Assembly (NCBI GenBank): GCA_963678705.1 | Contig: OY783217.1 | Coordinates: 6,386,001-6,450,000, forward strand | Reading direction: 5' to 3' | Origin: Panorpa germanica | Taxonomy: Eukaryota > Arthropoda > Insecta > Mecoptera > Panorpidae | Length of the DNA: 64,000 nucleotides | In this document: positions 7,689 through 61,096 of the stretch, piece by piece | Numbering within the stretch: the stretch's first letter is position 1 | How the letters are laid out: every line of letters starts with the position of its first letter | Program-made: the position numbers and the translations under genes | Notes under the pieces: model-generated | Databases searched by the model: none | What the model was told of the DNA's origin: nothing | The model's input: only the letters and a program-made list of their open reading frames with translations

Positions 7689-9043
7689 TTTAATTATTAA
7701 TTAAAAGACGACCTTTAAAAAATAAGATCCGGCTCGAAGGATTAATGTTTTGTTGTAGATGTGTAGTTCGAAAAAAATATCTTCTCTGAATTTATGAACA
7801 ATACAATATTTAAATTAAACTAAAAAATACAAAAATATATTAAATTAAGGTGGGATTTTGTTTTACAAAGCTCAAATACAAAATTGCCGTAGTAGTTAAA
7901 ATTAAAAATAACTAAACTAAAATGCCCAACTAACATAAAACCAATTCCTACCAAATAAATTTTTAGATTGGTACACAAAATATTGTAGCCCTAGGAGTTG
8001 TTTACATATAATTTCCTATTTCATATACTTTTTAAAATTAGTACATAATAAATATACTCGTACATTATATAATTTACGTTAATAATTATCTATACAGTAC
8101 TCTTTCAACCTCCACAAGTCAAAGTAATCCTAAGTTATTACCTTGGATAAAGTCTAAAATAACAAATAAATAGAGCTTTAATAAGAGGAGGCTTTAATTT
8201 CATCAATCAATGTACGAGTCTGATCGGAAAGGGTCGGTAAATCTGGGCTTAAAAGGTTATCAGTTAATCCACAAACTTCAATCAAGTAAGTATGATATAA
8301 CTTGTGTATTATCAGATATTTCATAGTAACGGTTGTTTTTTATTGATTAGTTACTTCCGTTACACTTTAAATACATTTTTGATTTGTTAAATTTATTTTA
8401 AATTTGCATAAAAGTTATTATATTCATATTATTATTATAAAGAATGACATCGTGTACCAATAATGAGCAGAGTGAATCTGAACAAATCTCAAACATTTCA
8501 AGCAAGATTACATGTAGAGTATTATCTTAATACTACGATAGATACATTCACACAATTTCTCTCTATGCATAGATAACTGTCTTATTACCTCAATTAAGCA
8601 TGCTGCAGAGTCCTCTGTGGTGCATTACATAAACCAAATGCAATGTTCCGAGCAATATCATTTGCATAACACATGGCTTTTGGTCATACCATCTAATTAG
8701 ATATTTATATATCGTATATGTATGACTTAAGTATTGATTACAGCTGCTGAAACTAATTGTATCTATATACTCCTGTATATAATTGTTGATGTAATACTTA
8801 TAACAATAACAATGCTATAAACTGGCTGGTTGATTGGCTAAGGGTTTGTAACATCAATAAATGATGACCCTTACGGCATCCCTTTAGTTAATAGTAGTAT
8901 ATTGTGTTATATCTAAATAAATCAGTTTAAATGACTTATTGATGGAAACCTTAGGAGCTATAAAGTTTACTTTCATAACTAATTAAATATAGGTTATAAA
9001 ATGTATGGTACATAAAACGGTCACCTTGTAGACATACCACGAA

Positions 9044-46961: not shown

Positions 46962-49389
46962 CTGAAAAAATAATTAATTTACTATAATATATTGTGTATA
47001 AATCAAGATAAAATTTGTGGAAAACTAGTAGCATCTTAGAATATATTTAGAAAGATTGTTTTCATATAATAGACTATAATAATAGAAAAACATTTCAAAT
47101 GTTTTTTATCTTAGTGAATTTTCATAATTCTGAATGATCTTTGCGTGTTTTCTTATTTTTAAAAAGAATCAATATTTTGCCTGTGTTTGTTTTTACACAA
47201 AAAGTAGAAATAAAATTCTTTTCTAAATATTCTACAGTAACCTTTTTGATTGCAAGCTACCAGATCTTACAAACGTTTCCAAAAAGGGGTAATCCTTTTA
47301 ATAGGAAAACTACCTTCATAAAAAAGTTCAATAAAAAGAAAAAGTATTTTATTAAACAAACGCAACAAATTGGTTTGAGAAATGTAAGACAAAAATAATG
47401 TAAGAGAAACCACATTATTTTCAAATTACGCTCTCAATTTCTAAACTATAGTCATCTAAGTTTTATTTCATTAACTAAGAGTAGGTAATTGTAGGTTGTC
47501 GGTAACTTAGTAATATTCTTTTTACATATTTAAACTGTGTCAGTATATGTCAAATTACAAAATACGAATTTAAATATTCATTATCATAAAATTAAAAACA
47601 ATGTGTTAATTGTATCTAGTGTTAAATAATTAATTAATTGATTTATATATATGATTATTTACGCACTCAATGCATACAAAATTTCAGAAAAACAATTTTT
47701 GTGTATAGAACGCAACAAATATTAAATAATCCAATTTTGACATTACATTCCCAATACATTTTTGATTAGCTGTTATAAATATGTTTTATATATTTTTGTA
47801 TAAACATTTTGTAAAACTAACCGTAATATTCAGAACAAACAGACAATAAAGGTAAAACTTTGCCATCCACAGTTTCAAATTAAATGAAAATAAGTAACAA
47901 CACAGGGTTACTGCACTACATATTCTAATATTTTGTCTTATATATAGTAACTCTTATATAGTTTATTAATTTATTTAAAACAAATATATAAATGATATAA
48001 TAATAAAACTTCAAAACGGCACATTATATAAAAAAAACTTCCATTACAGTAGCTCGGTGATACTGACATGAACCAAATAATATTCTACAATGTACATAAT
48101 CATTTACTTATATGATTTTAAAATGTAATAAAACTAAATTTCTTTCATCTAATAGAATATTTTATAACTAAATAAAGAATGTTATTTTATATTAGAAGGA
48201 GATAACATAACCCCTGATAATGATCAAAATTTTTGATATATTATTTACAGGAAGTCATAAAATATTCTATTATGTATATGACTATTAACATAATTATTTT
48301 TAAAGTAGATGATTTAATTATTTTTTTATTAATTATTTAATTATTTATAAATACTTTAGATGGAGTGCTGGGTTCGAGGTTACAGCACTCTCCAACAAAA
48401 ATTTGAATGAAACCGAAAAATATGCAGCAATGTATCAACTTATTTATAATATAGAAAATATAAGTCTGGTAATTATAATTTCTATTTAGACCTCAGGAAA
48501 GAATACTTATTTTTTAATTTAAGCTACTATAATAAGATTATCGAGTAAATATTTTATAAAACTAACCTTAAAGTTATTATGCACAGAATATTGAGAACAC
48601 TCGCATATATAGTAATCTTTTGCCAAATGCTTTTATGTTAACGCGAATACCCATTACTACTTATTAATGTTGTTTAATGATATATATTTAAAATGAAATA
48701 ACACAAATAGAAATAGCATTTAAAAAACTAAACATAATAAGAACACAACCTCCAGTGCTGGAAGACCCGGTACTACTGAACTATATTCACATTTCAAAAT
48801 CTATGCAAATGCTGCGATTTAACGTAGAACCCAAAGAATGTCTATAATGTCAACAATCATTTATAAAAAAAAAATTGTGCAGTAAAGGAGTCTAAAATTT
48901 TAATTTAATTAATTAATAGATTATTACTTTAATAATTAGTATTTTAGAATTTTAATTACTATATTATGACATTGAAAATGAGGGGTTCGAGAGTACAGCT
49001 TAGCATCTAACACAGGACTGTTGCCGGAATATTTATACTTGAAGCTGCAGAAAGTACATTCAACATAGTAAACAAATCTAAATTATTTTAATTACATAAC
49101 AAATAGACGCTAATGTAAATCAGAATAATTTAATTTCAATTTATTTCATGAAATGTAATATAATTGAAGTAAATATTGTTAAATAGTAATTAGTTTCTCT
49201 GAGATATTTAGATGAAACTCAATATTAACCTCCTATATTAATAAATAAATAAAGTGTACAACGTTTTTTTATACGACTACTAATATAACAACTACTGTAC
49301 TATTTTTTTAAATGTATTAATCTTTCGTAAATCTATTTATTTTCAGCCATAACAAATTATTTACATCATATAATATTCGCGATGTATAC
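46962..49389 (-). other. CadN intron, 2428 nt
   Basis: Bounded by donor GTATAC and acceptor ttttttcag. AT-rich with no recognised element. A plus-strand open frame at 47141-47398 is lysine-, phenylalanine- and isoleucine-rich and looks like chance. Confidence 0.85.
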
Positions 49390-49572
49390 CTGATTGTTTG
49401 GAAAAGTTCCATCTTTATCAATTGCATTAACTTGAGTCACTTTAGTACCAATTGGTTCGCCTTCTAATACTGTTTCTTGTTCCCTCTCAGTGAACAATGG
49501 AATTTCATCATTAACATCTTCTAGCATAATATAAACGGTGGCTTCAGAAGCCAACTGCTGGGCACCATTATT
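49390..49572 (-). CDS. CadN: CadN exon (183 nt) with DVNDE linker
   Basis: The acceptor is tctttgcag, 137 nt downstream of the previous exon, and the donor CAG followed by GTATAC opens a 2.4-kb intron. The exon is 61 codons, phase 0 at both ends, from NNGAQQLASEATVYI to TFPNNQ. It carries the canonical calcium linker LEDVNDEIPLF and the start of the next repeat with VLEGEPIGT and a DKDG calcium loop. It reads directly into VYYYVVDS in the exon at 46772-46961. Confidence 0.95.
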
Positions 49573-49709
49573 CTGCAAAGACATAGTAAAATATTAAATT
49601 ATGTAAATTATATAATTAGATTATCCTGTAGAAAAATATTTAATATTTTTAAAGAATTCCTAATATACTCTCTGAATAATGATAAATACAAAAACAATCT
49701 AATAGTTAC

Positions 49710-49899
49710 CTCAACTCGTATTGTCAGATTATATTCTTTGATGCTCTCATAATCCAGCGGATGGTTGACTTTAATATCCGCCCAAGTAAATCCATTATCT
49801 GATCTTTGTTGCAGATAAAATGTATGAAACTTATTCGTTTGTGCTGTGGATCCAGGCATAAGCCGGTAAAACACAGTGGGGTTTCCTTCAATCCCAGAG
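49710..49899 (-). CDS. CadN: CadN exon (190 nt) after the alternative pair
   Basis: The acceptor is ccatgtag and the donor GAG followed by GTAACT. The first base completes the Ser codon whose AG comes from exon A or B, followed by 63 codons: SGIEGNPTVFYRLMPG through LDYESIKEYNLTIRVE. This is the body of one cadherin repeat, with an LDYE motif in place of LDRE. It is the downstream constitutive partner of the switch and accepts only phase 2. It ends in phase 0. Confidence 0.95.
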
Positions 49900-51334
49900 C
49901 TACATGGACAGAAAATGTTGTTCAAATAGTTGCCTTAAAGTTTTAATAATAAATAATGTGTATACTTTGAAACAATTAACGAATGGATAAAGTAACAACT
50001 AGAATGAATATTTTAGTAAATTTAAATTGAATTAAAGTAATGTTCGATATAAAAAATTGGTGTATCGACATTTCCAAAATAAAAATGAAAAATACGTACG
50101 ATATAAAAATGAATAGTTAAGTGAACAAAACTCTGGCACAGCTGCATGCAGTTTTTAAATTGCCGGCATTAATTAAAAAAAAAACGTGTAAAAAATATTA
50201 TAATAGGAAATAGTAAAGACTATAACCAACAACTGATTTTAGCTCAGACTCAAACCGGCCGGATACAATAAATTAATGCACCATGCAGCATGTGACTGAA
50301 AATCTTAATTTTGAAACGCGATATTCCTACTAATTAAATTTGGAAATCTTTACAGCATCCACAATTACTTGTAGACATTTAGCGAACAAAAATTGCTACA
50401 AAAATGCTACTTGTACAAAAATCATGCGACAAAAAAATCACAAAAATACTTTTGACAAAAAAAAATGATCAAAAATGATAGATACGCAGCTGAGTAAATT
50501 TGTGGATGCTGTCAAGTGTTACCTCATGGGTCCCTGCACCAAAATGTGTGTACTTCTATCTTTAAAATGGTATCCTGGGGTTAAAGATGAGTGTTAGGGC
50601 AAATGGAAATGTGGAAAGCTCTTGCGTTTTTGTATTATTTAGTGCAAATTTCCTCAATTATCGCCAATGATGATGAATATGGTTGTTAGTTTATTGCCCA
50701 CACACACGGTGATTTAATTAAACACAGTTTCAATTTTAAAGATGATGATGAAGATCGATTTGGTGAGGGTGGGGGTTAGAGGTGAGTGAGAAGACAGCGG
50801 GATTCAATGGACGGTCGAGTTGTCGCTGAATGTAGTCGATTCTAGAATAACCCTTGACCGTGATGCCCCAAGCATTGCTGATGTTGCCAGTGCCGTGCTC
50901 TGGTTGGCTTGGCGTGAAGTGCAATCATATCTCGACGACATTCAACGTGCGCTCTTCCTCAACGGGACCTAAGGCTAGGAGGGCGTTAAGCGAAACTGTT
51001 TAGACGGATTAGATGGATTAGATGGGTGGTAGATTAGAGGATGATGGCGTGGTGGTGGAATTCAATGTACTTACTCGCGACTCAAAGAAAAAAGACCCAC
51101 AAAATGAGAACATAACGAGACTAAATTAACATCTAGTCTAACTATGGGGTATGAAGGGAGTCGGGACAGAGGGGAGGCTAGGGTTGGTAGCGGACAGCCA
51201 CACACCAAACTGACGTGCATAACAAGTGTGGTGGCGTGGTGTTGCGTGCGTAACCCCACGTGGTCAGGGAACGGCGGCCTGAACGTGCAGCCGCACGTTC
51301 GCACCGAGCAATCAACACTTATCGGGTCACAGAC
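49900..51334 (-). other. CadN intron downstream of exon B, 1435 nt
   Basis: This intron lies between exon B (or A, when B is skipped) and the exon at 49710-49899. The part nearest exon B, about 50.7-51.33 kb, is GC-richer than the rest of the window, while the part below 50.5 kb is ordinary AT-rich DNA carrying one copy of a repeat at 50211-50285. A perfect hairpin GAACGTGC/GCACGTTC lies at about 51280-51297. A minus-strand open stretch at 50736-50924 is unexplained. Confidence 0.8.
50211..50285 (+). repeat. Dispersed repeat, partner of 45521-45594
   Basis: Second copy, in the intron downstream of alternative exon B. Confidence 0.6.
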
Positions 51335-51525
51335 CTGGCTTTAACCGAAACGACCTTTGCCCCGACAGGCAGGTTCTCCCTAATGTAGATGGGACCGTAG
51401 ACCACGTGGTCCCACACCGGAGGATTGTTAGCACGGTCCACGACGTCTATCTGGACCTCCACGGTTCGTGACAGGGGTGGATACCCTTTGTCTTGAGCCA
51501 TGGCCTCCAGCTTGTATGTTTCTCG
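51335..51525 (-). CDS. CadN: CadN alternative exon B (191 nt)
   Basis: This second alternative exon lies 300 nt downstream of exon A. The acceptor is gattatatag, with almost no pyrimidine tract, and the donor is GCCAG followed by GTCTGT. It encodes RETYKLEAMAQDKGYPPL through DVVDRANNPP to VVSVKA, which I recognise as the common N-cadherin form. It plugs into the same place as exon A: LD from upstream and AG plus C giving Ser with the exon at 49710-49899. As in A, the linker between repeats is the DVVDR type rather than DxNDN. About 65% of third positions are G or C. Using A and B together, or neither, would shift the frame. Confidence 0.95.
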
Positions 51526-51825
51526 CTATATAATCAACGGACAATGGAAAATAAACCACGCCGTTAGTAATGTTAGTGGGACGGAGCGTTCTCGTGGGCT
51601 AGTGGGGCCAGGGCTGGCTTGGGCAGAGAGGGAATACGGCGGTAAAATGGGCGGGGGATGACGAAACACCCGGGGCCTGTCCACTCCCTCGATCGCGGGT
51701 AACACATTTATTCATAGCCATAGCTAAGGTTACCATAACGTAACAAAACGCGCGCCCGAGACCTCGGGGGCCCCGTCATCTGTCGTTCGTTGCTTCCTGT
51801 GGACTTACGCTATGGCGATACCAAC

Positions 51826-52016
51826 CTGGCTTTCACTGCCGTCACTACAGTACCCACTGTGACATTTTCTTTGATGTGAATGGGGCCGTACACATTCACG
51901 TCCCACAGAGGAGGCTTATTGTTCCTGTCTACGACGTCTAACTCAACGTCCACGTCCGCGTAGGAGGGAGGCACGCCCCGGTCGGAGGCCCGCACGCGCA
52001 GGCGGTACCTGTCTCG
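51826..52016 (-). CDS. CadN: CadN alternative exon A (191 nt)
   Basis: This is the first of two homologous alternative exons in transcript order. The acceptor is gccactag and the donor GCCAG followed by GTTGGT, both weak. It gives 63 codons plus two bases, from RDRYRLRVRASDRG to VVTAVKA, completing the repeat begun upstream, then the linker DVVDRNNKPP, then the first strands of the next repeat (VYGPIHIKENVTVG). The linker lacks the DxND calcium motif. The exon has the same length and phases (0 to 2) as exon B and about 54% protein identity (34 of 63). About 70% of codon third positions are G or C, much more than the neighbouring constitutive exons. The pattern is that of a mutually exclusive exon; which Drosophila CadN pair it matches was not established. 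Confidence 0.9.
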
Positions 52017-53756
52017 CTAGTGGCATAAACACGGGGTGTCAGGTCAGCGGGTCGGGGCGAAACGATTAAATAATAACAAAATAACAAAATAATTTCATAA
52101 ATCATAACAAACTTAAAGAATAACCCAATCATGTAAATCGCTCCAGCTAATAAAATCAAAATAACATAAGATATAACATACACATAAACAAAAAGAAATA
52201 ATATAGACATCATCTGCACTGAACCGCAGAGTGCGAGTAACAAATGGCGACAAGACACACTAGCCGAATATAATTGTAACGATAACGAATAAATAATTTA
52301 TGTACAAACAATTGCCTTCAAACAAGGCGTTAGCAAATGATTGCAAATTGTTATCTTGCGCATGTACTGTACTTGTACTTGTACATAGACTAAATGGCTC
52401 TATCTCTAGATAATTGAAAATAAAATCAACATAAATGAGCAATGAACAATAAATCTTACGCTACTGAATCTACTACAGAATCATTCGTTCAGATGACAGT
52501 CGCACTGTATGAAATAGAGGCAACTGGCTAGAGCCTACGTCGGTACATTTACCGGTATCATACCTACTTACTGGATAACATCCCTGAAGTGGTCAATGCC
52601 GAAGAACAGAAATGTGCAATGTAACAGAATAAAACAAAGAGTATATTAACATAAATAAATCATGATGAAAGCAGGCAAGGCATGCGGAGCTTTGATTGCA
52701 TTCCCAAAAAAATAGTGGGAGGTTGGGGGCCAGGATGTGAAAAAATCGTGACCGCCAGTATAGTTAATCGGAACGACGCTCAAAAAACGATGGACGTTTC
52801 GAATTTCTTGTAATATAACGGTACTTCGCCCCATACACAGAAGGAAAAATGTCACAATTGCGTCAAGGCAGGTGTCAGAGTGCCAGCACCCGCTCATTTT
52901 GAAAAAAACGGCCCCTCTGAGACCGCCGAGACCAAAATATTTCTAACTACATGGTAAACCATAGCTTAATCTGGTGCCCCTGAAAAAATGAGCCAAAAAT
53001 ACATGGTCATGATAAAAATACATCATGTTAATATTCAAAAAAAATATGGGCCAAAAAAATATTCATCTCAAAACATGGCGCCCACTGGATGGCCCCTCTC
53101 GCAGGCGGCTTCTCAAAAATCGTGGTACCTGTACGGGTAGCGCCAAAAAACTTGCGCTGTACAAAAAATTTCTGCAGTTAGTAGAAAGACATGTAACAAT
53201 TCTAGAATCAGATGACAACATGACATACATCATTTCTGAATTTAAAGTCAAACTCAACGTTTCACCCAGGCTGAAGCGGCCTTCAAATTTAAAATTGTTT
53301 TAATTATTATTCGGACTCGCTAGCTAAGACTAGCACCAGACACTAGAGCTGTACATGTATTTGCACTAAGAAAACGCAGAACGACAGTGAAAAGTATAGC
53401 GTAAATATAATAATAATAAACTGTAGAGTATGCAAGGTTGTGCCGTACAAACGAAACTCATGAGTTGTAATGTAAATAACAATTAAGACAAGTGTGCCTG
53501 TATCCACGTTGGAGCTTATAGCAACTGAAACAAAATTGTGCTGAAAGGAAGAAACAAGCTACCTAATGCGTTCTTAAGGTGTCAGAAACTCTCTCGTGTC
53601 TCGGTAGTGTCATTCGGTGTAGTTCGGTGTAATTCGGTGTAATTAAATCGGTTTATCGGCGGCCGCTCCTCCAGGATAACCTAAGAAACCTCTCGCGCTT
53701 TCATTCTGCATTTGCTCTCGCATTCATTCGAATATTTATTTATGAAAGACACTTAC
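52017..53756 (-). other. CadN intron upstream of exon A, 1740 nt
   Basis: Starts at the strong GTAAGTG donor at 53756 and ends at the weak gccactag acceptor of exon A. It contains a tandem of 10-bp TTCGGTGTAA-like units at about 53613-53645 and an oddly composed tract at 52.65-53.30 kb with repeated GGCCCCTCT and CAAAAA words. Open frames on both strands in that tract have no recognisable domains. Confidence 0.75.
53613..53645. repeat. Short tandem repeat of TTCGGTGTAA units
   Basis: Three to four 10-bp units inside the intron upstream of alternative exon A. Confidence 0.8.
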
Positions 53757-53948
53757 GTCGAGAGGCTTTTTCAAAACAATCCACCCAGATTCGGGTTGAA
53801 TTTCAAAATATTCCAAATCTCCTGGATTATATGGGGCACTTAAAGTGTATACGATAGCACCATTATTATCTGCGTCTTCGTCGGACGCTGACACTCGAAG
53901 AATGTTTGTTCCAATGCTAGCATCTTGTTTAACGTTCTCGACGTATTT
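53757..53948 (-). CDS. CadN: CadN exon (192 nt) before the alternative pair
   Basis: The exon lacks an in-frame ATG but is clear from translation and splice sites: acceptor ctttctag, donor GAC followed by GTAAGTG. It is exactly 64 codons in phase 0 at both ends, from KYVENVKQDASIG to WIVLKKPLD. It joins the preceding DRQ and supplies the first half of a repeat, with the DEDADNNG calcium loop and the LD of the LDRE motif at its end. The following R(E/D) comes from whichever alternative exon is chosen, so this exon is the upstream constitutive partner of the switch. A hand count gives G or C at 22 of 64 third positions. Confidence 0.95.
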
Positions 53949-55080: not shown

Positions 55081-55276
55081 CTGAAACAAAATATTATTTT
55101 TTAGATATATAATCATTAAACATGCAAAATGCTTTTATATTGAATAAAATACTCAATAAACCGAATAAATTGTAGTCACTTTTCTATATTTACTTCGAAT
55201 ACTACACCATTTATTTGAATTTATTCAACCTGTTTATTTTTCTGATTAAATATTGATTCTGTTGACTGAAAAATAC

Positions 55277-55493
55277 CTCAACTGAAGTAGAAAATCCGCC
55301 GGAATCCTCTGTAGCAGTAACAACTAAGGAATAAACATGGGGCTGCCTGAGATCCTCAAAATCTAATTCTTTTGCCAGTTTCACGATTCCAGAAGTAGGT
55401 CCAATGTTGAAGGTACCAGCTCCTTGCCCTTGTGCCTTCAGGGTGTAACGAATTTCTCGGTCGGCAAAGGATTTCGCTTTTACGGAGATAATG
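55277..55493 (-). CDS. CadN: CadN exon (217 nt), EC repeat core
   Basis: The acceptor is ctttcag and the donor is GTATTT, a weak donor that opens a short 196-nt intron. The exon supplies one base to the split Asp codon and then 72 full codons ending in phase 0. The protein starts IISVKAKSFADREIRY, runs through the repeat core with LDFEDLRQPHVYSL, and ends STSVE, which reads directly into LTIRVTDVNDN of the next exon. It forms the body of the repeat whose first strand lies in the exon at 57385-57823. No residue loss, stop or frameshift was seen. Family identity is secure; the exact EC number cannot be given without the N-terminal part of the gene. Confidence 0.95.
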
Positions 55494-57384
55494 CTGAAAG
55501 TAGAAAATATAATTATAAGCTTATTCAAGTTTTTCAAGTTATTTTATGTTGGAGTAGTTTTATATTAAAAAAGTTAGTGGAGCTCCAATGTACAACGCAA
55601 ACCATTTTATGAAACATTCCTGTTATTTTATGATGAAGTAAATCAATGGTATGGAAGGAAAGAAAGAATATTTTATATTGCAAATGATTTGAATTTGTAA
55701 CAATCAATTCGCATGAATGATTTAAGTAAACATTGATAATTTAATTATTAAAAAGGTAGGACAAACAAACGAATCGTAAAATATGCGGGAAAAGTAATTC
55801 TAACTAAATTATATCATTGTTCTAATTTAAAAAAAAGAATTCTACAAAATAACAAATTAGATTACAATAATAATAGAAATTCTAGATCATACAATAACGT
55901 TATTTAACATTAGTATAATACATTTTTTTCCTAATTTAAGGTGAAACAATACTTGGCCATTTTTTCTAGCGAAATAAAGATGACGATTCTATACAGCAGG
56001 TTAAATATTATCAAAAAAACCATGTTTTTTTATGTTTAAATCGTTTTATGTAAGTAACTATAAAAGCGAATTAAAATCTAAAGCTGCAATTAGTTAGATG
56101 GATAACGTATCTACATTTTAAGCCACTGACTTTTAATTAGTTGGAATCGCAAAAATAACTTTTTGCTAATTGGAATTTAACTAGAAAATATAGCAATATT
56201 CATTTTCAAAAGTTATTTCTGCGGTTCCAACTCATTAAAAGTCAGTGGAAGAAAGCTTAAAATGTAGATACGTTATTCGTCTAAGTAATTGCAGCTTTAG
56301 ATTTTGACTCGTGTTTATAGTTACTTACATAAAACGATTTAAACATTAAAAAAACATGTTTTTTTTTGATAATATTTAACCTGCTGTATCGCTAGAAAAA
56401 ATGGCCAAGTATCGTTTCACCTTAATTTATTTAACGTTGGCATATTTCTAATTCTGACGATTGTTTTTATTTAAGAAAAACAGGAAGCCCGGTTTATTTT
56501 AGTAGATCTGTGTCGTATACACACATACAATATTCTTTTAAACTATTGCCTATAAAATGATTTCATATAATGCATAACATTTTATTGCGTATAAATTAAA
56601 TAGACTAGATTATAATAAATTGCTAGAAGAATAATTAAAACTATCTTTCAGTTCTCTACTACTACTTCTACTACCATCCCTCTATCTATCTGTCATTTCC
56701 ACCCCGTCCTATTGTAAGGGTAATAACGTAATATACTGAACAAAAGTTGGCGAATCTACAAGACATTAGAACAAGTTTGCCTTAAAAGATAATTCGTTTT
56801 ATGGCTGGGCCATAATCTAGTCGGTAACTAATGTGCAAGAAGTTTTGCTAATGTCTTATATATGTATATATGGTACCATGTAAGTATTTTCAAATGTTTG
56901 AAAGCCAACTATACTTCTTATTATCTTTCTGATATATGATACCACTCTACGGAAAGTAAACTGTGATGCATTGGGTGAAAATCGCTGGACCAAAACGGTG
57001 TCGAATATATTTATGATATATGCCTTTTGTAAGTAGACTTAAAAATGTATAAAGAAATATGTTTTCTTCAAAATTGTTTTAATATTGTGTTACAGAAATA
57101 TTGTATTTATATATCCTAACTTTTGTCGTAAAGAATATTATAAATAATTTTAAATTGTGAAAATAACATGTAACATGTATTGACATCACTTCAGGCGTAT
57201 TTATAATGAGCTTGTGTCCTATGTCTTAATTTCTATAAAAGTGTACTATATATTGATAAAGTGTACTTTATATGGGTTCTACGCCTGAATTGATGGCAAT
57301 ACTAATAACATGATATTATGTTATAGATATTATATGATACATGGTAATACTTTTGAACATTATCGTTCAATCTTCGACACTTAC
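55494..57384 (-). other. CadN intron, 1891 nt, with foldback element
   Basis: Bounded by donor GTAAGT at 57384 and acceptor ctttcag at 55494. It contains the 490-bp foldback element at 55936-56425; the remainder is AT-rich with nothing recognised. Confidence 0.85.
55936..56425. mobile_element. Foldback MITE, about 490 bp, TTAA-flanked
   Basis: Two arms, about 55936-56165 and 56208-56425, are nearly identical when one is reverse-complemented, differing by a small insertion in the left arm (AAATAAAGATGACG region) and scattered bases. The outer ends read TTAA-GGTGAAAC and GTTTCACC-TTAA, so TTAA may be a piggyBac-type target duplication, though piggyBac ends usually begin CC. No coding capacity. 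In the CadN pre-mRNA it would fold into a stem of over 200 bp. Confidence 0.85.
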
Positions 57385-57823
57385 TCTGAATCCTTCTTCT
57401 GATTTTCTGGGATTTCAGCTTCATAACTCGGCATGTAAAACTGTGGAGCTCGTTTTCCTCCAACAATAGACAATCGTTCTTCAGGTGTAGATTGAAATCT
57501 TCTTTCATCAACTCTTCCATTTTGATCTTCAGCTTTAACATAAAGAACATATTCCATATCCAATTGAAACACATCGGTACCTCTGGTTCTAACAACTCCA
57601 GAACGTTCATCGACTTCAAACCGTCCTCCTGTCCGATCACGGACGATGAAGTAATGTATATTATGATCGGTGTCGGGGTCACGTGCTTGTAAAGTGAACA
57701 CAGGTGTGTTTGGGGGTGCGTTTAGTTGTACCACTGCTTGCATGGGGAGGGGGCGGTTGATGAAATAAGGTGGCTCATCGTTGATGTCTTTGACGTGGAT
57801 TATTACCCTCTGGTTGTCCGTGT
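57385..57823 (-). CDS. CadN: CadN exon (439 nt), EC repeat plus flanks
   Basis: The exon follows a tttccag acceptor and ends at a consensus GTAAGT donor. It begins with the last two bases of a split codon and ends two bases into the next (intron phases 1 and 2). It encodes about 146 residues: the end of one cadherin repeat with the calcium linker DINDEPP near residue 12, a complete repeat carrying DPDTD, FEVDERSG and AEDQNG motifs, and the start of the next (APQFYMPSYEAEIPEN). The linker before that next repeat reads RLSIVGGKRAPQF and lacks the usual DxNDN, so it should be a calcium-free joint. Match to insect N-cadherin is very close by eye. The joining residue with the next exon is Asp (GA plus C). 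The upstream exon was not found in the window, apart from the candidate microexon at 61085. Confidence 0.95.
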
Positions 57824-61084: not shown

Positions 61085-61096
61085 ATCGTAATCCGG
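61085..61096 (-). CDS. Candidate 12-nt CadN microexon
   Basis: On the minus strand a CTAAT branch-point match is followed by about 35 nt of almost pure pyrimidine, then tttacag, twelve bases (CCGGATTACGAT), and a GTAAGTAC donor. All splicing signals are strong. Twelve bases keep the frame. If the unseen upstream exon ends in a single G, as a G-AC Asp codon at 57823 would need, inclusion would replace that Asp by Ala-Gly-Leu-Arg-Tyr. That peptide is inference. No known CadN microexon at this place comes to mind, and the sequence could be an unused decoy. Intron distance to the next exon is about 3.3 kb. Confidence 0.5.

Follow-up and report, generated by a model that had tools for sequence, protein, structure and literature searches.

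The window, that is, the whole 64,000-nucleotide stretch of Panorpa germanica DNA analyzed here, carries part of a cadherin gene on its minus strand. Upstream of a pair of alternative exons lie common exon 6 in the published numbering scheme, at 53757-53948, and, further upstream, cadherin exons at 57823-57385 and 55493-55277 and a long exon at about 55080-54061, the ends of which were placed by eye. Downstream of the pair lie common exon 8, at 49710-49899, and two more cadherin exons, at 49572-49390 and 46961-46772, all in the same orientation. Taken singly or in combination, the translated exons match cadherin repeats (PF00028, Pfam); the raw-frame translations of 55211-55543 and 49366-49593 score below Pfam's own cut-off. 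Downstream of 46772, in window positions 1-46700, no further cadherin exon was recognized by eye among the minus-strand frames of at least 28 amino acids and more than 0.37 GC, and 0 of 7 large open frames from that region match Pfam at E 0.01. At the same threshold, no match was obtained for one frame at 60.3 kb or for two frames in the intron before the pair. The gene seems either to have a very long intron downstream of 46772 or to continue past the window. A PDB search matched other cadherins, no insect N-cadherin being named among the best 60 of the 139 matches. Scans of the window for Rfam families, at the gathering threshold, and for tRNAs were both empty.

The two alternative exons are designated ME-7a and ME-7b, as follows. 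ME-7a, at 51826-52016 on the minus strand, is 191 nt long, begins in phase 0, ends with the first 2 nt of a codon, and encodes RDRYRLRV...AVKA. ME-7b, at 51335-51525 on the same strand, has the same length and phases and encodes RETYKLEAMAQ...SVKA. Each exon thus amounts to 63 codons plus 2 nt, and both are bounded by AG acceptors and GT donors. The intron between them, 51526-51825, is 300 nt long and contains the branch-point-like sequences TACTAAC and CACTAAC, 39 and 48 nt before ME-7b. The two exons are identical at 34 of 63 amino acid residues and at 109 of 191 nucleotides, and a BLASTP comparison aligns them at 28/51 identities with an E of 3e-14. A preliminary description of this locus had given the positions, lengths, and shared phases of the two exons, the intervening intron, and the protein identity; the positions proved exact to the base, and recomputation returned the same identity.

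The flanking exons accept either member of the pair. Exon 6 ends with a full codon (...KKPLD; donor GTAAGTG), and exon 8, which begins C TCT GGG ATT (S/SGIEGNPTVFYR), completes the split AG/C codon to give ...KAS/SGIEGNPTVFYR. The frame is therefore open through exon 8 when ME-7a alone or ME-7b alone is used, just as the preliminary description had stated. Its argument that using both exons, or neither, shifts the frame is also sound. When ME-7a is joined to ME-7b, the shifted frame reaches a stop inside ME-7b after 26 codons, the junction codon included, and when exon 6 is joined directly to exon 8, the latter reads Leu-Trp-Asp-stop. Because double inclusion and skipping both lead to an early stop, no full protein is expected from such transcripts.

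When translations of exon 6 joined to ME-7a or ME-7b are aligned to the Pfam model, one cadherin repeat closes about 28 residues after the start of exon 7. Consequently, each ME-7 exon contributes the C-terminal part of that repeat, the linker with its calcium site, and the N-terminal part of the repeat that follows. In ME-7a the linker sequence is DRNNKPPLW, and in ME-7b it is DRANNPPVW; the DxNDN part is degenerate, and the strict DxNDNxPxF motif is found in neither. A calcium-binding DRE motif spans the junction of exons 6 and 7, reading D/RE with ME-7b and D/RD with ME-7a, and the Drosophila junction oligonucleotide likewise encodes D/RD.

A GC-rich island, 50730-52060, surrounds the pair and, introns included, has 0.538 GC versus 0.296 for the whole window. 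The GC content is 54% in the 51-52 kb interval and 0.25-0.29 in three stretches further downstream of the island. ME-7a and ME-7b have 0.586 and 0.560 GC, and the seven other exons measured have 0.37-0.46. The observed/expected ratio of CpG is about 1 in the island, as in most stretches measured. The intron after ME-7b contains an inverted repeat at 50348-50516, with 17-nt arms that are 94% complementary and 135 nt apart. The arm 12-mer CAGCATCCACAA has no other copy in the window, one mismatch being allowed. The segment looks like a small terminal-inverted-repeat element.

Correspondence to the N-cadherin exon set

Hsu et al. 2009 (PMC2655722) reported three mutually exclusive exon pairs in the N-cadherin genes of flies, a mosquito, the silkworm, a beetle, and Daphnia, which agrees with the preliminary statement that Drosophila CadN has such pairs. 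In the passages of that paper used here, the length of ME-7 is given as 63 amino acids, the identity between ME-7a and ME-7b as 50% in Drosophila, and the DxNDNxPxF motif is given for all ME-7s. The exclusive exons are described there as retained for more than 400 million years in arthropods; in Apis, one member has been lost from two of the three pairs, ME-7 being unaffected.

The comparison with the Drosophila alternative exons that the preliminary description had proposed was carried out on the published oligonucleotides. We counted the distinct residues encoded by the 14 published Drosophila and Tribolium oligonucleotides that fall in ME-7 exons. For the Drosophila 7a oligonucleotides, 19 of 20 residues match ME-7a versus 10 of 20 for ME-7b, and for those of Drosophila 7b, 20 of 22 match ME-7b versus 9 for ME-7a. 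The Tribolium 7a residues match ME-7a at 15 of 18 positions versus 12 for ME-7b, and the Tribolium 7b residues match ME-7b at 15 of 16 versus 13 for ME-7a. These counts are partly circular, as oligonucleotides B, C, Q, and R bear no exon name in the passages used and were assigned by match. Oligonucleotides H and I contain named oligonucleotides, and eight are named outright. With the eight alone, the matches to the corresponding exon and to its partner are 10/11 versus 7 (7a) and 8/10 versus 4 (7b) for Drosophila, and 10/12 versus 9 (7a) and 9/10 versus 8 (7b) for Tribolium. The two 7a probes encode SVKA, which fits ME-7b of the window at 4 of 4 residues versus 3 of 4 for ME-7a. All four comparisons lean the same way, so the upstream exon is assigned as ME-7a and the downstream exon as ME-7b. 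Over the residues encoded by the oligonucleotides, then, each exon appears to resemble its orthologue more closely than it does its partner, clearly for Drosophila and slightly, by one to three residues, for Tribolium.

The common exons give the same picture. Drosophila oligonucleotide A (exon 6, at 53819) matches at 10 of 11 residues, and the Drosophila reverse primer encoding NPTVFYR (exon 8, at 49883) matches at 7 of 7. The fly oligonucleotides that span 6/7a (PLD/RDRYRLRV; oligonucleotide B), 7a/8 (SVKA-S/SGIE), and 7b/8 have the same junctions as the window. Together with the PF00028 repeats, these matches uphold the earlier assignment of the gene to CadN. The ME-13 oligonucleotides that were tried gave no convincing match to the window, the best scores being 0.46-0.83 of self over six frames, with the higher values coming from peptides of 5-7 residues. 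The six-frame scan takes the best-scoring frame, which is not the frame of the gene for several oligonucleotides (Dm_7bF, Tc_7aF, Dm_13bP). A query with exon 7b against viral and genome contig collections that hold no arthropods returned 8 and 122 pattern matches, respectively, and no relative.

Thus, the pair is very probably ME-7a and ME-7b of an insect-type N-cadherin, kept mutually exclusive by the reading frame together with a regulated choice. It is a real but ordinary pair, of a kind already known from flies, beetles, moths, and water fleas, and the preliminary reading of it was correct and well argued. The literature covered on CadN exclusivity, RNA structure, and microexons, which consisted mostly of papers open without subscription and included passages of PMC3303723, PMC9013439, PMC3359714, and PMC4553572, held nothing on ME-7 past Hsu et al. 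2009.

A candidate for microexon 7a'

There is a third element, overlooked in the preliminary description. According to the passages of PMC2655722 used here, a 12-nt microexon, 7a', is predicted in all insects examined; it invariably accompanies 7a and is never combined with 7b ("data not shown"). We have placed a candidate for it at 52572-52583 on the minus strand. Its sequence, GGATGTTATCCA, encodes Gly-Cys-Tyr-Pro in frame, the acceptor is TTCAG, and the donor is GTAAGTAG. The candidate is the best of the eleven 12-nt AG..GT pairs in 49900-53757 and, with both strands of the 64 kb counted, one of four YAG-N12-GTRAG sites. The AG-free zone upstream of it extends for 106 nt, more than for any other AG among the 87 of the intron; about 1% of the AGs in the window reach such a length. 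Of the ten acceptors scored, its own is the weakest (-1.13), and the branch-point-like motifs are poorly placed, at distances of 10 and 63 nt. A pair with the candidate's site score is expected by chance 0.11 times per 1,740 nt, and the site score by itself is not decisive.

The 300-nt middle intron contains none of the 11 pairs, and the pairs downstream of ME-7b have splice sites of poor quality. A higher-scoring 12-nt candidate at 61096 was rejected as 7a' because it sits in an upstream intron instead. It is itself a textbook-like candidate microexon, 61085-61096 on the minus strand (CCGGATTACGAT, donor GTAAGTAC, with a strong pyrimidine tract), upstream of the exon at 57823. On neither strand of the window does another 12-nt pair score higher, a site at 8153 being nearly equal. 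At and just after the end of the candidate 7a', in 52545-52571 on the minus strand, four donor-like sites (scores 1.56-3.49) are found within about 20 nt (GTAAGTAGGTATGATACCGGTAAATG).

The published 7a oligonucleotides, in the passages of PMC2655722 used, join 6 to 7a and 7a to 8 directly, which indicates that 7a' is optional. Being 12 nt long, 7a' stays in frame with either ME-7a or ME-7b, and its published restriction to 7a is therefore not caused by the frame. The account of exclusivity as locked by the frame, put forward in the preliminary description, thus holds for the choice between 7a and 7b itself and does not extend to the pairing of 7a' with 7a only. This pairing needs an active choice of splice partner, beyond frame and decay. 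Up to 8 CadN isoforms are given by Hsu et al. 2009 (PMC2655722) and 12, for Drosophila, by a review (PMC3359714), both in the passages used here; by our own arithmetic, 12 would fit three exon-7 states times two times two.

The choice between ME-7a and ME-7b

We suggest that each transcript would take one of two versions of a single joint of the ectodomain, with exclusivity arising at two levels. At the level of the frame, as the sequence itself shows, a transcript with both exons or neither meets a stop near the wrong junction and yields no full protein, and such transcripts probably undergo decay. At the level of splicing, a regulated choice would operate, in which the weak acceptors of ME-7a and ME-7b would need activation. 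The 12-nt microexon upstream of ME-7a may add a third state.

The splice-site scores are consistent with this proposal. The acceptors of ME-7a and ME-7b score -0.06 and 0.53 versus 3.19-4.92 for the six common exons; the matrices were home-made, so that the scores serve as ranks only, and the six do not include the long exon that precedes exon 6. Weak acceptors in both exons are as expected for exons that need activation. The donors are middling, with 2.03 for ME-7a and 1.76 for ME-7b, and weaker ones occur among the eight exons scored, in exon 9 (0.88) and exon 4 (1.52). In fly and beetle, the use of ME-7 switches during embryogenesis, as reported in the passages of PMC2655722 used. The pair is likely to be used and regulated in a comparable manner in Panorpa germanica, and the caution of the preliminary description, which had called regulation an inference, still applies.

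How far the frame could suffice by itself is the question raised by one alternative, namely, that splicing is loose and that transcripts with both exons or neither are freely made and then removed, the frame and decay being the sole enforcement. Double inclusion looks mechanically possible, as the 300-nt middle intron has a good branch-point match, and the early stops are found in both of the wrong products. We nevertheless consider this alternative unlikely, since the switching between the two exons reported for embryos requires regulation and since 7a' pairs solely with 7a though in frame with both exons (PMC2655722, in the passages used). The same branch-point match bears on a mechanical barrier to joining 7a to 7b, which would be either a steric block of the α-tropomyosin type or a mixture of U2 and U12 sites. 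The AG-free zones before ME-7a and ME-7b, 95 and 65 nt versus 20-53 nt for six common exons, would leave room for a distant branch point. However, the TACTAAC located 39 nt before the acceptor of ME-7b, a consensus match and predicted branch point, is separated from the ME-7a donor by about 261 nt, and so a tropomyosin-type block is not expected. The doubt about steric blocking that the preliminary description had based on the intron length is thereby justified, and the branch-point match is the firmer ground for it. As for incompatible sites, the donors GTTGGT and GTCTGT are not of the U12 type, each agreeing with 3 of 9 U12 donor positions. A mechanical barrier is, accordingly, highly improbable. 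Still less probable is the notion that one exon of the pair is a decaying, unused duplicate. Both frames are open, the GT-AG sites are intact, and both exons retain residues that the fly and beetle exons also have.

A further alternative is selection of the exon by competing RNA pairings, of the docking-site and selector-sequence type that operates in Dscam and other insect clusters: an intron segment would pair with a single partner at any one time and so bring one exon forward. Several observations lean toward such pairing. A duplex between the middle and downstream introns, at -29.4 kcal/mol, is reached by 0 of 10 shuffles, and one between the upstream and downstream introns, at -30.8, by 0 of 3. 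The 100-nt window at 51107-51206, in the downstream intron, has a z of -3.73, the lowest of 151, and the introns flanking the exons of the pair have a high GC content (0.547 and 0.504). In addition, a perfect 8-bp hairpin (GAACGTGC/GCACGTTC, 4-nt loop) is located at 51281-51300 on the minus strand, 34 nt downstream of the ME-7b donor; it is a possible element, as yet unproven. Against this, 4 of 10 shuffles match the duplex between the upstream and middle introns, at -29.6; the 151 local folds average a z of 0.09, and 7 of them are below -2; and 13 of 40 shuffles attain the top ungapped inverted-repeat score over all pairs in 49850-53800. When its 300 nt were shuffled 1000 times, such a hairpin arose in 18 cases, and the hairpin region folds no better than shuffles (z -0.33), the best structure forming without the 8-bp hairpin as such. 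Selection by RNA pairing is thus improbable, to about the same degree as enforcement by frame and decay only, and a structural switch is unproven. The combination of frame and regulated choice is the reading that we retain.

Meaning of the swap and comparison with known systems

It is tempting to propose that ME-7 is a three-state switch (7b, 7a, and 7a plus the Gly-Cys-Tyr-Pro of 52583-52572) that tunes the calcium dependence and stiffness of the joint, although we regard this as a tentative and rather doubtful reading. The insert would separate the D from the RD of the calcium-binding D-R-E/D motif, in a joint where DxNDN is already degenerate. An insert inside a calcium motif, combined with a degenerate linker, suggests that the choice would affect calcium dependence and stiffness. 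In the passages of PMC2655722 used here, ME-7a and ME-7b are both expressed in the embryonic nervous system and mesoderm, earlier cell assays cited there gave unequal homophilic adhesion for the two transmembrane (ME-18) isoforms, and tests in vivo gave no clear protein-level difference among isoforms.

The locus adds a data point, from another genome, to a known arthropod exon set and is no new kind. For specialists, it offers a placed candidate for 7a', the position of which does not appear in the passages of the PMC2655722 text used here, and the argument from the 12-nt frame about the partner choice of 7a'.

The resemblance to other exclusive exons varies with the system. In α-tropomyosin, the branch point of the second exon lies too near the donor of the first, which, by the predicted branch point, is not so here. 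In Dscam-type clusters, the pairing of docking and selector RNA governs mutually exclusive exons. The present pair resembles these clusters in that its exons are mutually exclusive, in tandem, and in an insect cell-surface gene; it differs in that it comprises just two exons and shows no pairing that clearly exceeds chance expectation.

The closest likeness is to the ME-7 exons of Drosophila CadN (CG7100) and Tribolium (PMC2655722, in the passages used). The family, the junctions, the 63 codons, and the orthologous residues of each exon are shared, and the residues of exons 6 and 8 are nearly identical over the oligonucleotides compared. The Panorpa pair differs in lying in a GC-rich island and in a pair identity of 54% (34/63) versus 50% in Drosophila. 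Its candidate 7a' resembles the insect 7a' of the same source in being 12 nt long, phase-neutral, and located in the intron that adjoins 7a.
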